Source: Lachnospiraceae bacterium FE2018 (lineage in GTDB: Bacteria; Bacillota; Clostridia; Lachnospirales; Lachnospiraceae). Taken from it: a stretch of 64,000 nucleotides of DNA. Below the pieces are notes generated by a model. The model searched no databases. It saw only the letters and a list, made by a program, of their open reading frames with translations, and was not told where the DNA came from. The position numbers were made by a program, and so were the translations under genes. This document shows, one piece after another, positions 31,125-40,191 of this stretch. The stretch spans positions 1 through 64,000 of the forward strand of contig JNKK01000004.1 in assembly GCA_000702845.1 (NCBI GenBank), written 5' to 3'. Within the stretch, counting starts at the first letter, position 1; the number at the start of each line of letters is the position of its first letter.

Positions 31125-33623
31125 TTAAGCTGTTTCAATAGCCGCATCCTGCTGCAGACCGAGACGTTCAACAGCCTGTTCACGCATCTTGTACTTCTGA
31201 ATCTTTCCGGCGTCGTTCATCGGGAAGCCGTCGACAAAATCGATATATTTCGGAACTTTATGCTTGGCCATGTGGTCCAGAATAAACTGTTTCATTTCTT
31301 CAACAGTCATTTCCTCATTTTCCTTGAGAATAATGCAGGCCATGATTTCTTCGCCCATCGCCTTGTCCGGAACGCCGATCACCTGTACATCGCTTACCTT
31401 CGGATGTGTATAGATGAATTCTTCGATTTCCTTCGGGTAAATGTTTTCGCCTCCGCGGATGATCATATCTTTCAGGCGGCCTGTGATGCGGTAATTACCT
31501 TCCGGTGTGCGGCAGGCAAGGTCTCCGGTATGGAGCCATCCATCTGCGTCGATAGCAGAGGAGGTTGCCTTCGGCATCTTGTAATAACCTTTCATGATGT
31601 TATAACCGCGCGCGACAAATTCGCCGATGACATCATCCGGGCAGTCTTCGCCGGTTTCCGGATCGATGATCTTGCACTCGACTTCCGGGAAAGCGCTGCC
31701 GACTGTGGAGACACGCACTTCAAGGGAGTCTGTCGTGCGGCTCATTGTGCAGCCCGGCGCAGCTTCTGTCTGTCCGTAGACGATGACGATTTCCTTCATG
31801 TTCATCTTGTCGACGACGTCTTTCATGACAGCAATCGGGCAGGGGCTTCCCGCCATAATGCCGGTCCGCATATAACTGAAATCAGTCTTTTCGAAGTCCG
31901 GATGATTCAGCATTGCGATAAACATCGTGGGCACGCCGTTAAATGCTGTGATGTGTTCGTCATTTACACACGCAAGCGATGACTTCGGAGAGAAGTACGG
32001 AATCGGCAGAATGGTTCCGCCGTGTGTCATGGTTGATGTCATCGAGAGGACCATGCCGAAGCAGTGGAACATCGGGACCTGGATCATCATGCGGTCTGCG
32101 GTGGAGAGATCCATGCTGTCGCCGATGGTCTTGCCGTTATTGATAATATTATAGTGGGTCAGCATGACGCCTTTCGGGAATCCTGTCGTACCGGATGTGT
32201 ACTGCATGTTGCAGACATCATTGACATCTACCTCGGCAGCCATACGGCGGACTTCTTCGATCGGCGTATTTTCTGCGTAAGCCCGGGTTTCTTCGAGCGT
32301 GAGCGCGCCCGGCATGCGGAAACCTACAGTGACAACGTTGCGCAGGAACGGCAGGCGTTTTGCGTGGAGCGGTTCACCGGGTTTCTTGCCTTTCAGTTCC
32401 GGACAGATCTCGTTGATGATTTCGACATAGTTGGAATCACGGTAGCCGTCAATCATGACCAGCGTATGTGTGTCAGACTGACGAAGCAGATACTCTGCCT
32501 CATGAATCTTATATGCGGTATTCATGGTTACCAGAACCGCACCGATTTTTGTCGCCGCCCAGAATGTAAGATACCACGCAGGAACATTTGTCGCCCAGAT
32601 CGAGACTTTCGAACCGGCCTTGACACCGAGCGAAACAAGTGCGCGCGCAAATTCATCGACGTCGTCACGGAACTGACTGTAGGTACGCGTATAATCCAGC
32701 GTTGTATATTTAATGGCAGTCTGATCCGGGAAGTTCTCGACCATTGTGTCAAGCACCTGTGAGAAGGTCTTGTCAATCAGGGCATATTTTTCCCATACGT
32801 AGTTGCCGGTGTGCCGGTTGTTCCAGTACAGATGTTTTTTTGCAAGCCTGGTGCTCTCATAGTTTTTGAGGCAGCGGTAGTAGTGGTTCAGAATAATCTC
32901 GATGTCCTCAAGTTCCGGCATCCAGTCCGGATTCCACTCCAGCGAGATAAATCCGTCATAATTAACCGAACGGAGTGCATTCATCATTTCCTGAATCGGG
33001 AGATCGCCTTCACCGATGAGTTCTGAGACATATTCATTGTCTTCCTTTCGGAAGTCATGAATATGGACATGATGAACATAGGCGCCGAGATTTGTGATGG
33101 TTACTTCCGGATTTTCGCCGCCGGTCACATAGGTGTGATGCATATCCCAGAGTGCGGCAAGACGGTCATCGGCAAAGCGGTCAAGCAGATCACGGAGATG
33201 TTCCGTGTTGCCGTAAAAGCCGTCTGTCTCGACAAGCAGTACAACCGGTGCGCTGCCGATCATTTCAAGATGTCTGCGGATTGCCTGTTCACAGATTTCA
33301 TGTTCAACACAGTGCGTGTGCATGCCGATGTTCGGGATGCCGAGATTTACAGCCACGTTGATGCTTTCCTGTAATTCTACAGCAAACTCAGGGGATGTAA
33401 AATCGGTGGATGTGCTGATGCAGGGAAGTGAGAGAGACTGTCCGGCGAGATTTCTTCTGGTCGATGCAGCCATCTCAGGGTTGGTCGGACTTACTTTTCC
33501 ATGAAAGACCGGTCCTCTGACGTTGTAAAGTTCGATGCCGTTCAGACGCGCATCTACTGCAGCTTCTACCATATTTGCCCAGCTGTAATCATTCCAGTAC
33601 TGGATGGAAAATGAAAGTTTCAC
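31125..33623 (-). CDS. Fusion of TIM-barrel epimerase-like domain and acyl-CoA synthetase
   Basis: The 832-residue protein joins two unrelated enzymes. Residues 1 to about 265 are a xylose-isomerase-type TIM barrel of the sugar phosphate isomerase/epimerase kind, with possible metal ligands in VETDGF, DMHHTYV and HIHDFR and in SLEWNPDW. Residues about 285-820 are an AMP-forming acyl-CoA synthetase: YTSGTTGFPKG near 474, YGQTEAAP near 620, TGDLACR and TGRLKDMIIRGGENI near 715, and a catalytic Lys in NDAGKIQKYKMRE. The start is GTG at 33623 with AGGAGGA upstream. No stop or frame change marks the junction, so it is one gene. Neither substrate is known; it lies 49 bp after the LeuA-like gene in one likely operon. 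Confidence 0.85.
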   Translation of the reverse strand: MKLSFSIQYWNDYSWANMVEAAVDARLNGIELYNVRGPVFHGKVSPTNPEMAASTRRNLAGQSLSLPCISTSTDFTSPEFAVELQESINVAVNLGIPNIGMHTHCVEHEICEQAIRRHLEMIGSAPVVLLVETDGFYGNTEHLRDLLDRFADDRLAALWDMHHTYVTGGENPEVTITNLGAYVHHVHIHDFRKEDNEYVSELIGEGDLPIQEMMNALRSVNYDGFISLEWNPDWMPELEDIEIILNHYYRCLKNYESTRLAKKHLYWNNRHTGNYVWEKYALIDKTFSQVLDTMVENFPDQTAIKYTTLDYTRTYSQFRDDVDEFARALVSLGVKAGSKVSIWATNVPAWYLTFWAATKIGAVLVTMNTAYKIHEAEYLLRQSDTHTLVMIDGYRDSNYVEIINEICPELKGKKPGEPLHAKRLPFLRNVVTVGFRMPGALTLEETRAYAENTPIEEVRRMAAEVDVNDVCNMQYTSGTTGFPKGVMLTHYNIINNGKTIGDSMDLSTADRMMIQVPMFHCFGMVLSMTSTMTHGGTILPIPYFSPKSSLACVNDEHITAFNGVPTMFIAMLNHPDFEKTDFSYMRTGIMAGSPCPIAVMKDVVDKMNMKEIVIVYGQTEAAPGCTMSRTTDSLEVRVSTVGSAFPEVECKIIDPETGEDCPDDVIGEFVARGYNIMKGYYKMPKATSSAIDADGWLHTGDLACRTPEGNYRITGRLKDMIIRGGENIYPKEIEEFIYTHPKVSDVQVIGVPDKAMGEEIMACIILKENEEMTVEEMKQFILDHMAKHKVPKYIDFVDGFPMNDAGKIQKYKMREQAVERLGLQQDAAIETA

Positions 33624-33672: not shown

Positions 33673-35082
33673 TTATAATTCCTCTTCATAAACAATCTTG
33701 TTCAGCGCACTGATGTATGCACGGATCGAAGCGCCGATGATGTCGGTGGAAATTCCGTTTCCGGAATATACATGTCCGTGCGCACGCAGTTTCACAAGTG
33801 CGCTGCCCATCGCGTCGCGTCCTTCTGTAACAGTCTGAATCTGGAAATCATCGAGTTCATAATGGTGGCCGATAATCTGTTCAATTGCGAGAAATGCTGC
33901 ATCAATCGGTCCGTCGCCGACGCCGACGCCGCGAAGTTTCTCGCCTTTTTTATCGAGTACAATATTCGCAGTCGCAGTAATGATATTTCCACTGTTAATG
34001 ACATAGTTGTCGATCCGGTAAGTGGACGGAACCTGAAGGGCAGAGCTGGCAACAATCGCATCCAGTTCTCTGGTTCCGACGAACTGCTTCTTGACCGCAA
34101 CCCGGCAGAAAGCTTCATAAACCTTGGCATTGTCTTCTTCGCTCAGGTCATAGCCGAGCTGTCTGACAACCTTGGAGACCTCACTGATATCATCATTTAC
34201 ATCCAGTGTCACATTGGCAATATCGCCCATACCGATCGATGCGAATGAGGATTCTTCTTCTTTTGGCTGCAGCATCTTTTTCAGCTGTCCGACAGAACGG
34301 TTCAGTTCTGTTGTGCGCAGATTGGATGCGATATCCAGATCGGCACCTTTTGTCTGAATGAAGCGGGAAGCTTTTTCAACAGACGGGAATTCAGTCGGCA
34401 GAGCTGTACATTTGATTCCGGATGCACCGTTTTCAATTGCCGCAGCGGCACAGGCGATTCCCATATCCATGTGATCGCTGATCTGAACAAACAGTTTTAC
34501 ATCGGAAAGAGCAGGGACGTTCTCTTTGACACTGCTGACAAAACTGCCGAATTCATTCGGGAGCATAACACCTGCTGTATCACAGAGTGTGATCTTATTT
34601 GCACCGGCTTCAATTGCGGCCGCAACGATCGTATAAAGAAAATCAGATTCTGCGCGGGTAGCATCTGCAGCGATGAATTCCACGTGTTCACAGAGGGATT
34701 TGCATTTTGCGACCTGAGCCTTAACTGCCTCCAGCATCGCAGGCGCTTTTTTGTGACTCGCATATTCCATCTGAACCGTAGAGACAGGCGCGTATACAGC
34801 GAGACGCGGCTGCTTTGCCGCGCTGATGCTGTTCCAGGTCATTTCAACATCACCGGACGCCGCATCTACCTCAGCACACAGAATCACATTGACTGTTGCT
34901 GCAATTGTCTTATTTGTAAGTACTTCAGCCTTTGTTCCGGAGATCGGAGGAAGCTCGATAACGTCAACGTTCAGCCGGTCAAGTGTACGGGCTATTTCAA
35001 GCTTTTCCTTAAAGGAAAGCGCTGTGTTCTTCAGTGAACCGGATTCCCGAAGGGTTACATCGATGATTTTGATCGTTCTCAT
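33673..35082 (-). CDS. Divergent 2-isopropylmalate synthase-like protein (HMGL barrel + LeuA regulatory domain)
   Basis: The 469-residue protein has an N-terminal HMGL-like barrel (1 to about 280) and a C-terminal LeuA dimerisation/regulatory domain (about 360-465, with GVGDGPIDAAF, DAMGSALVKL and SGNGISTDII). The usual active-site signatures are altered. The RDG-x-Q loop reads LRESGSLKN (11-19), keeping Arg12 but with Glu13 for Asp. The metal-binding HxHND reads SDHMD (202-206), losing the first His. It may condense a different pair of substrates or be non-catalytic. A Leu-type T-box and promoter lie directly upstream, which ties expression to leucine. AAGGAG precedes the ATG at 35082. Confidence 0.75.
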   Translation of the reverse strand: MRTIKIIDVTLRESGSLKNTALSFKEKLEIARTLDRLNVDVIELPPISGTKAEVLTNKTIAATVNVILCAEVDAASGDVEMTWNSISAAKQPRLAVYAPVSTVQMEYASHKKAPAMLEAVKAQVAKCKSLCEHVEFIAADATRAESDFLYTIVAAAIEAGANKITLCDTAGVMLPNEFGSFVSSVKENVPALSDVKLFVQISDHMDMGIACAAAAIENGASGIKCTALPTEFPSVEKASRFIQTKGADLDIASNLRTTELNRSVGQLKKMLQPKEEESSFASIGMGDIANVTLDVNDDISEVSKVVRQLGYDLSEEDNAKVYEAFCRVAVKKQFVGTRELDAIVASSALQVPSTYRIDNYVINSGNIITATANIVLDKKGEKLRGVGVGDGPIDAAFLAIEQIIGHHYELDDFQIQTVTEGRDAMGSALVKLRAHGHVYSGNGISTDIIGASIRAYISALNKIVYEEEL

Positions 35083-35161
35083 GGTTTGATTCTCCTTTGC
35101 TTGATTGATTTCTTCTCCGGTAACTGATCAGACTGATGCAATCCGATCATTGCTGATGCGC

Positions 35162-35462
35162 AAAAAATCCCGGAGATCTAAACAAGTGTTTAAATCTCCG
35201 GGACGACAAAACTTAACTCTATCGCGGTACCACCCGGATTGCCGCAGGAAGTGCGGCCACTCAGCAGCGCTCATGTAAGCGCCCGGCCATGATTACGGAG
35301 CCAGCCGGATTTCCTTACTTGACACAACGTTTTCAGGAAATCTGCTCAGGCAGGAGACTGCGGACTCTGTTCGCACGCTGACTCGCATCAACCGTCAGCT
35401 TTCTGAAGTGGTAGACAGAACGCATAGTGCCGTCATCGCATTTATCTGGAAGAATCCAGCTA
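35162..35462 (-). promoter_or_regulatory. T-box riboswitch, Leu type, of the LeuA-like operon
   Basis: On the minus strand the T-box core CCGGGTGGTACCGCGAT lies at 35221-35237. The terminator hairpin CCCGGAGAT...ATCTCCGGG is at 35169-35202 with its T-run at 35162-35167. The likely specifier is CTC (Leu) at 35354-35356, followed by CTGCCTGAGC, the same frame of reference as TTC in the pheST T-box of this window. Uncharged tRNA-Leu would allow read-through into the LeuA-like gene and probably the two genes behind it. Confidence 0.88.
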
Positions 35463-35578: not shown

Positions 35579-36754
35579 TTATGTGCAGAACTCTCTCAAG
35601 GAGAAGATTACTATCTGGTGCTCACCATAGAAATCAGGAGATATAGTTCCGGATACATTAATCTTAAGGATTTCATTCTTACAGATCACATTTGTGATTA
35701 TGTCGGACATCAGGTCACATATAAAGAAGCTGTTTCAGAAACTTGTACCGAGCCCGGCAATAACCCACATTATTTCTGCCCGGTTTGTGAAAAATGCTTT
35801 GCTGATAAAAACGCCGGACAGGAAATAGAGGATCCAGATACGCTTATTATTCCTGCACATCATAACTGGGGAGAGTGGGAAGAGTCGAAAGCGGCGACAT
35901 GTTCTGCAGACGGGGAGGAACAAAGAATCTGTACGTCAGATCCTTCTCATACGGAATCAAGAGAGATTCCGGCATCGGGTCATATATGGGGAGACTGGGA
36001 AACAGAGGTTCCGGCTACCTGTACTGAAGCGGGAACTGAAATCAGAGTCTGCAGCAAGGACGCGTCACATGTGGAAAGCAGAGAGATTCCGGCAACCGGA
36101 CACGACTGGGACGAATGGACGGTAACCAGAGCGGCGACGACGTCGAAAGAAGGAGAGGAAACCAGAATCTGCAAAAACGATTCGTCTCATATAGAGAGAA
36201 GAATCATTGAGAAACTGCCGCCGGAGTCAGTTGTTTCAGAACCGGATGCTGCTGCAGCCAAAGGTGGCAAGACAGCCGGAACTGTCGCATACGGGCAGGC
36301 TTCCACAGGCAGACAAGTGGAAAACGGACAGTCTGTTACGCAGCCGGAAGGTGTCTTTACAATTACTTCTGCAAGTACAGGCACAGTTGCTTTTACAGCT
36401 TCTGCCAACAAAAAAAGGGTGACAGTTCCTGATGAGATCTCAGTCAGCGGCAGACAATTTGCAGTGACAGAAGTAAGTCCCGGGGCTTTTGCAGGATCCA
36501 GAATACGAACAGTAACAATCGGAAAAAATGTCCGGAAGATCCGGAAGAATGCTTTTAAAAAATCGAAAGTAACAAAACTGGTAATCAAAAGCAAAAATCT
36601 TACAAAAGCATCAGTGAAAGGGTCGCTGAAGGGGTCTAAAATCAAGACCATTCAGATTAAGACAGGATCAAAAAAAGACAATAAAAAATATGTGAAAAAA
36701 TACAAGTCATTTTTCACAAAAAAGAATGCAGGCAAGAAAGTCACTGTAAAATAA
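35579..36754 (+). pseudogene. Remnant of a secreted repeat/BspA-type surface protein
   Basis: The frame is open from 35579, with a possible GTG start at 35618 giving 378 residues. It contains Cys/His-rich repeats of the kind H-x-W-x-x-W...ATC...G...R-x-C...H-x-E-x-R-x-I-P-A-x-GH, about three times (roughly residues 85-195). A BspA-like leucine-rich segment (FAGSRIRTVTIGKNVRKI) follows, then a Lys-rich tail. Such modules occur in large exported proteins of gut Clostridia. No signal peptide, convincing ribosome site or start is present, and the first ~40 residues begin mid-domain. I read it as the 3' part of a gene that lost its beginning, though a short expressed product cannot be excluded. 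Confidence 0.65.
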
Positions 36755-36927: not shown

Positions 36928-37425
36928 ATGAAAAAACGTATTTATCAGCTTCTTGTTGATAACGCATCCGGTGTTCTGAGCCGGATTGCAGGTCTGTTTT
37001 CAAGAAGAGGCTACAACATTGACAGCCTGACTGTCGGCGTTACGGCAGATCCCCGCTATTCACGCATGACCATTGTAAGCTCAGGGGATGATCTGACACT
37101 GGATCAGATCGGAAAGCAGCTTGAAAAGCTGGAAGATGTCCGCGACCTCAAAATTCTGCATGAGAACGAGAGTGTTACACGGGAGCTGGTACTGATCAAA
37201 ATCAAGGCATCACATGAAAACCGCCAGAACATAATCAGCATTGTCAATATCTTCCGCGCGAAGATTGTCGATGTCGGTGTAAATTCTCTTGTCATAGAAC
37301 TGATCGGCACGGACAGCAAACTGAAAGCGTTTTCCGAACTGCTTGAGGGCTATGAGATTCTGGAACTGGCCAGAACCGGACTGACCGGACTGTCCCGCGG
37401 TATGGACGATGTAACTTATCTTTAA
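36928..37425 (+). CDS. ilvN: Acetolactate synthase small (regulatory) subunit
   Basis: It binds valine and controls the large catalytic subunit that makes acetolactate for branched-chain amino acids. The 165-residue protein has an N-terminal ACT domain (about 3-78, starting YQLLVDNASGVLSRIAGLF and including RRGYNIDSL) and the C-terminal small-subunit domain, the normal size. AAAGAAGGA precedes the ATG. ilvC follows after 76 bp. The large subunit (ilvB) is not adjacent, so the partner must be encoded elsewhere. Confidence 0.93.
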   Translation: MKKRIYQLLVDNASGVLSRIAGLFSRRGYNIDSLTVGVTADPRYSRMTIVSSGDDLTLDQIGKQLEKLEDVRDLKILHENESVTRELVLIKIKASHENRQNIISIVNIFRAKIVDVGVNSLVIELIGTDSKLKAFSELLEGYEILELARTGLTGLSRGMDDVTYL

Positions 37426-37498: not shown

Positions 37499-38518
<1,020 letters not shown>

Positions 38519-40116: not shown

Positions 40117-40191
40117 CGGGGTGTGGCTCAGTTTGGTTAGAGCGCACGGCTGGGGGCCGTGAGGTCGCAGGTTCGAATCCTGTCACCCCGA
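40117..40191 (+). tRNA. tRNA-Pro (anticodon GGG)
   Basis: A 7-bp acceptor stem CGGGGTG/CACCCCG with discriminator A closes a standard cloverleaf. The D-arm reads GCTC...GAGC and the T-arm GCAGG-TTCGAAT-CCTGT. The anticodon stem CACGG/CCGTG encloses CTGGGGG, giving anticodon GGG for proline. CCA is not encoded. It is a single tRNA gene with its own promoter and terminator. Confidence 0.95.

Follow-up and report, generated by a model that had tools for sequence, protein, structure and literature searches.

A leucine T-box operon of gut and rumen Clostridia pairs a catalytically degenerate LeuA homologue with an acyl-CoA ligase and probably makes leucine from isovalerate

In isopropylmalate synthase (LeuA), the residues of the RDG, HxH, GERAGN and HESGIHQDG motifs bind the metal and catalyse. 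We analyzed a homologue of this enzyme, referred to below as LeuA*, in a 64,000-nucleotide stretch of the genome of Lachnospiraceae bacterium FE2018 (the window; Table 1). The AlphaFold (AF2) model of LeuA* (pLDDT 85.3) matches LeuA structures: the barrel fold is shared with the proteins of Neisseria (3rmj), Mycobacterium (3fig), and Listeria (3ewb) at TM-scores of 0.84-0.92, and the LeuA_dimer domain is shared as well. Unlike LeuA, however, LeuA* is without the RDG aspartate, the HxH motif, the GERAGN loop, and the HESGIHQDG segment, is about 40 aa shorter, and is found in genomes that usually have no leuB.

Dead enzymes that control a pathway have been described before. HisZ, the regulatory subunit of the short ATP-phosphoribosyltransferase, is a dead paralogue of an amino-acid enzyme that serves as a feedback subunit. 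The mode of action that we propose for LeuA* would be alike, although HisZ derives from histidyl-tRNA synthetase, acts on HisG, and has no sequence relation to LeuA*. Similarly, the trypanosome prozyme is a dead AdoMetDC paralogue that controls the active enzyme (PMC6221367), but there the controlled enzyme is its own paralogue, whereas LeuA* would control an unrelated ligase.

That rumen bacteria require branched-chain acids has been recognised since the early 1960s, and ruminants are fed isoacids. A 2020 paper refers to Allison and co-workers (1962, 1966) for a rumen route that carboxylates isovalerate to give leucine (PMC7356843). The reactions assigned here to the operon would match this route, since a ligase, an oxidoreductase, and an aminotransferase correspond to activation, reductive carboxylation, and transamination. 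The pathway itself has been known physiologically since Allison's work on rumen bacteria in the 1960s. A search of open papers, which is not proof of absence, retrieved neither a gene assignment for the isovalerate-to-leucine route nor a LeuA pseudoenzyme.

Table 1. Features of the LeuA* locus, in positions of the window
Feature	Position	Strand	Evidence and remarks
PFOR-type 2-oxoacid:ferredoxin oxidoreductase, 1169 aa	27517..31026	-	TIGR02176, 1701 bits; operon-specific clade
Fusion protein, 832 aa, TIM-barrel domain + AMP-forming acyl-CoA ligase	31125..33623	-	AP_endonuc_2, AMP-binding, AMP-binding_C
Acyl-CoA ligase domain	31155..32768	-	PF00501 + PF13193; core motifs YTSGTTGFPKG, YGQTE, GKIQK intact
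Sugar isomerase/epimerase-like TIM barrel of the fusion	32874..33623	-	PF01261; metal site incompletely conserved among family members
LeuA*, pseudo-isopropylmalate synthase (supported from sequence), 469 aa	33673..35082	-	Pfam HMGL-like (1e-34) + LeuA_dimer (3.9e-31)
LeuA_dimer (leucine regulatory) domain of LeuA*, residues 338-463	33694..34071	-	PF08502, 108.1 bits; best-conserved part
Degenerate HMGL-like TIM barrel of LeuA*, residues 4-226	34405..35073	-	Pfam match; motif losses
Leu T-box leader	35196..35445	-	RF00230, 100.4 bits (gathering score 93), E 5.8e-21; conserved before orthologues
T-box specifier codon CTC (Leu)	35354..35356	-	Rfam alignment; CUC in the same register in relatives
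ilvN, acetolactate synthase small subunit	36928..37425	+	NF008864 over cut-off; divergent neighbour
ilvC, ketol-acid reductoisomerase	37502..38518	+	NF004017 over cut-off; divergent neighbour

A preliminary description of the window had reported an intact LeuA regulatory domain together with an altered active site, in which LRESG and SDHMD take the place of the usual motifs. The domain is indeed recovered by its Pfam profile, and the two motifs lie at residues 11-15 and 202-206. The damage is nevertheless larger than described, as it extends to the GERAGN loop and the HESGIHQDG segment, and both the lack of conservation of H204 and the continuation of the operon into an acyl-CoA ligase and a PFOR had been missed. 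In line with these losses, LeuA* scores 262.9 bits against the TIGR00973 equivalog model, far under its cut-off of 598.7.

Relatives of LeuA* were collected from genomes of the same family and from 80 loci of named records, nearly all of them MAGs of gut and rumen Clostridia. One record with the operon is titled Abditibacteriota (L161:72-1478), representing either gene transfer or a mis-binned contig. We aligned 86 LeuA* members, with two canonical LeuA sequences as reference. The RDG metal aspartate was never an aspartate in any of the 86 (38 E, 34 Q, and others including K; E in the window protein), and the RDG arginine was a lysine in 31 of them. Neither HxHxD nor the HESGIHQDG segment that carries the catalytic histidine was found in a single member, and the GERAGN loop was deleted. 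H204 of the window protein pairs with the second metal histidine in a pairwise alignment but is not conserved among relatives; neither metal histidine is conserved, and the family therefore keeps none. Substitutions at the former ligand positions are unconstrained (D to E/Q/K, H to S/Q/E). With its metal and catalytic residues gone, LeuA* is not expected to carry out the known isopropylmalate synthase reaction, and judged by its sequence it is very probably not an isopropylmalate synthase.

We then looked at how the protein is maintained. Mean column identity was 0.78 in LeuA_dimer versus 0.58 in the barrel, and dN/dS against a 93%-identical relative (L086) was 0.034 over the whole gene, 0.014 in its C-terminal part, and 0.048 elsewhere, values that are rough because dS reached 1.3 in this comparison. 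The loss of the catalytic motifs could suggest a decaying, functionless leuA pseudogene, but the full-length reading frame kept in 86 relatives, the low dN/dS, and the conservation of both T-box and neighbouring gene already refute this reading, whose probability is next to nil.

A rebuilt active site must also be weighed, with LeuA* performing another acyl transfer or condensation, for instance on isovaleryl-CoA made by the ligase. Indeed, the barrel is under purifying selection, and residues D8, T10, S101, Q104-M105-E106, D140-A141-R143, D168, and E177 stay conserved. Against this, no member keeps the metal ligands, the HESGIHQDG segment, or the GERAGN loop, the ligand positions drift as described above, even the RDG arginine is not constant, and conservation is higher in the regulatory domain than in the barrel. 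The preliminary description had offered a different condensation reaction as one of two options; with the metal ligands and the catalytic-histidine segment absent from 86/86 members, this option found no support, and an enzyme with a rebuilt site appears improbable. We rejected an altered but active condensing enzyme on the basis of this motif loss across 86 members. Because the catalytic residues are lost throughout the family and purifying selection is nevertheless strong, the sequences support LeuA* as a conserved pseudoenzyme rather than a condensing enzyme. The other option, a leucine-sensing protein without catalysis, is supported by the finding that LeuA_dimer is the best-conserved part and that dN/dS is lowest in the C-terminal part, although what would be controlled, a coupled acyl-CoA ligase and a carboxylation pathway, had not been seen. 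Searching the PDB with the sequence of the regulatory domain by itself returned chance hits only.

T-boxes switch genes on when charged tRNA-Leu is scarce. The T-box with specifier CTC noted earlier upstream of LeuA* proved to match its Rfam family above the gathering score. In the same family, a T-box precedes the LeuA* orthologue in five relatives, with CUC as the aligned specifier. Among 77 further loci, 52 had a T-box core at most 700 bp from the gene; leucine specifiers could be parsed in 34 of these, 21 reading CTC and 13 CTG, both of them leucine codons. Since Leu T-boxes recur before LeuA* in relatives and in these further loci, the CTC specifier is not a chance occurrence. A recognisable T-box is absent from about one third of LeuA* loci, which counts against our preferred explanation. 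Searching further upstream of the T-box-less loci yielded at most one clear extra T-box (L095), and the Rfam search returned none in loci L104 and L123. Divergent from the T-box of the window lies an ORF of 378 aa (35618..36754, plus strand) with a repeat of about 45 residues, GHxWGxWE..ATC..G.E.RxCxxDxSHxExRxIPAxGH, and a C-terminal part resembling a surface leucine-rich repeat protein. Farther along, a tRNA gene was detected at 40117..40191 on the plus strand (65.7 bits), whose anticodon we read by eye as GGG (Pro).

The gene for the ligase fusion starts with GTG 49 bp past LeuA*. It was the next gene after LeuA* in every one of the 74 loci whose sequence extends 900 bp or more downstream, and a 4-bp overlap between the two genes is common among loci. 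Mean column identity was 0.83 in the ligase domain, above that of LeuA*, and 0.57 in the fused TIM domain, whose AF2 model (pLDDT 91.3) has an isomerase/epimerase fold and matches 3tva, 2zds, and UlaE. In a mirror-tree comparison, the distances of the LeuA* barrel and of the TIM domain of the ligase correlated beyond the ligase domain (partial r 0.63), a value that we do not take to indicate contact, since fast evolution of both regions could produce it. The ligase is immediately followed by an Amidohydro_2 gene (about 270 aa) in 11 of 42 loci (for example L104:11081-11914, L099, L127, L134, and L136). Separate AMP-ligase-like proteins of about 755-790 aa are encoded near the LeuA* operon in L136 (15121-17391), L146, L149, L154, L155, and L158, and the copy in L136 starts with an XRE-like HTH stretch.

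Because LeuA* appears catalytically dead, retains an intact leucine domain, and is always paired with the first committed enzyme of the proposed pathway, it would most simply be a feedback subunit, and we consider with moderate confidence that it is the leucine-feedback partner of the ligase. Leucine sensing could instead serve a target other than the ligase, with LeuA* as a free regulator or as a scaffold for the whole pathway. We infer the contact between the two proteins, and the mirror-tree signal can arise from the fast evolution of both, which leaves this reading some room. However, adjacency to the ligase is invariant and often accompanied by translational coupling, while the other pathway genes come and go, making a target other than the ligase rather unlikely.

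These other genes encode an oxidoreductase and an aminotransferase. PFOR, VorB, or IlvE (the branched-chain aminotransferase) is encoded on the same strand within 9 kb downstream in 22 of 42 loci, and an IlvE-type aminotransferase gene lies upstream of LeuA* in about 10 loci. In locus L123 the gene order is LeuA*, ligase, IlvE, P-loop ATPase, VorB, VorA, with IlvE and VorB both above curated cut-offs. A small P-loop ATPase directly before VorB is seen in L123 (15022-15717) and in the VOR cluster of the genome of the window (L190:5504-6226, on C14), and it fits every curated family compared poorly. In the window itself, ligase and PFOR are in the operon, and the BCAT gene is on another contig of that genome.

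Genes of VOR (VorABC, 2-oxoisovalerate:ferredoxin oxidoreductase) are co-located in several loci, with VorB over the curated cut-off, whereas in the window their place is taken by a single-chain PFOR from a distinct clade. The operon PFOR shares its architecture with pyruvate:ferredoxin oxidoreductase (PDB 6cin, 1b0p), but the operon PFORs of different species form one clade of their own (support 100/100), separated from the housekeeping clade by a branch of 0.49. One PFOR copy of genome G115, encoded on another contig, also falls within this clade. The substrate pocket, SSIW in the pyruvate enzyme, is SQAW in all 14 full-length operon copies. In the Desulfovibrio africanus enzyme the isoleucine of SSIW (I843) borders the space that takes up the pyruvate methyl group, and alanine in its place would leave room for a larger side chain; this is only suggestive, because two other paralogues in the genome of the window also carry alanine there. 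That genome has four PFOR-type genes. Two paralogues on long branches with an SSAY pocket, at G000:C5 (L189:1369-4920) and G000:C6 (L188:1898-5407), are possibly misannotated as pyruvate enzymes.

The operon PFOR occurs in 17 of 57 carrier genomes. None of these 17 has a VorB above 500 bits, compared to 32 of the 40 others (p 8e-9), a threshold picked after the scores were seen; the curated cut-off gives 4/17 versus 32/40. In the 8 remaining genomes of the 40, loci were cut short or VorB was partial. The VorB of the window's own genome (NF005507, at G000:C14) scores 414.2 bits, above the curated cut-off of 399, and the VorB proteins of relatives without operon PFOR, at 511-560 bits, are clearly above it. 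Such an either-or pattern is as expected of two enzymes for one step. The operon PFOR seems to replace VorB, and this "pyruvate" oxidoreductase is probably not one.

The preliminary description had proposed a comparison with other leuA copies of the genome; a search of the assembly found none, and no normal leuA, while the search for leuC gave an aconitase-like match only. In the same family, leuB over cut-off was missing in 8 of 9 LeuA* genomes versus 13 of 191 others (Fisher p 3e-8), and in a second family it was present in 4 of 33 LeuA* genomes versus 82 of 117 others (p 2e-9). Both tests assume independent species, an assumption that does not hold here, but the repeat in a second family helps. 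The absences are less certain because most of the genomes are draft MAGs, and leuB is kept in 6 of the 50 genomes behind the named LeuA* loci, which counts against our preferred explanation. So does the retention of ilvNC in the genome of the window, since 2-oxoisovalerate is therefore available there by the usual route.

ilvC is missing from 32 of the 57 carriers, as expected for users of branched acids, and these carriers may build leucine, valine, and isoleucine alike from acids. Isobutyrate and 2-methylbutyrate may thus be required as their sources of valine and isoleucine, and VorB enzymes are often broad. Both points would fit an operon that activates and carboxylates several branched (or aromatic) acids, with isovalerate not special and leucine only the signal. 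On the other hand, the T-box is leucine-specific, with CTC or CTG as specifier, and the sensor domain is of the LeuA type, so that we regard this reading as unlikely, though not negligible.

The direction of flux can be considered in the same manner. In Stickland-type metabolism these oxidoreductases and aminotransferases run in reverse, and the operon could accordingly break leucine down from 2-oxoisocaproate via isovaleryl-CoA to isovalerate. This is very unlikely, as the T-box activates at scarce charged tRNA-Leu, the carriers are mostly without leuB, and an AMP-forming ligase favours acyl-CoA formation.

We therefore prefer an operon for synthesis. When charged tRNA-Leu runs short, the T-box would let transcription through into the operon. 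The fused ligase would convert isovalerate, ATP, and CoA to isovaleryl-CoA, which a ferredoxin-dependent 2-oxoacid oxidoreductase (the operon PFOR here, VorAB in relatives) would reductively carboxylate to 2-oxoisocaproate, and IlvE would transaminate the latter to leucine. LeuA*, presumably descended from an isopropylmalate synthase whose catalysis was lost while its leucine-binding domain persisted, would most likely bind the ligase, perhaps barrel to barrel, and shut it down when leucine is plentiful, adding allosteric feedback to the control by the T-box. The pathway is well supported by genomic context, and we infer the regulatory role of LeuA*. It is likely that the operon functions in making leucine from a branched acid; that the acid is isovalerate and LeuA* the leucine-feedback partner of the ligase, taken together, is our favoured and somewhat probable reading. 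The chances are about even for the broadest claim, namely that an isopropylmalate synthase no longer used for catalysis was recruited as the leucine-feedback subunit of an unrelated acyl-CoA ligase, that a PFOR clade annotated as pyruvate-specific turned into a branched-chain 2-oxoacid synthase, and that these supply the genes so far lacking for the isovalerate-to-leucine pathway in many Clostridia of gut and rumen.

Named genes would make the branched-acid requirement of these bacteria predictable from genomes and testable by mutation. Annotations would be corrected, the "LeuA" being no synthase and the "pyruvate" oxidoreductase probably not one, and calls of leucine auxotrophy for gut bacteria would change. 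Overall, the retention of a dead enzyme solely for its sensor domain, with an unrelated enzyme as its partner, would be a clear case of regulatory reuse.
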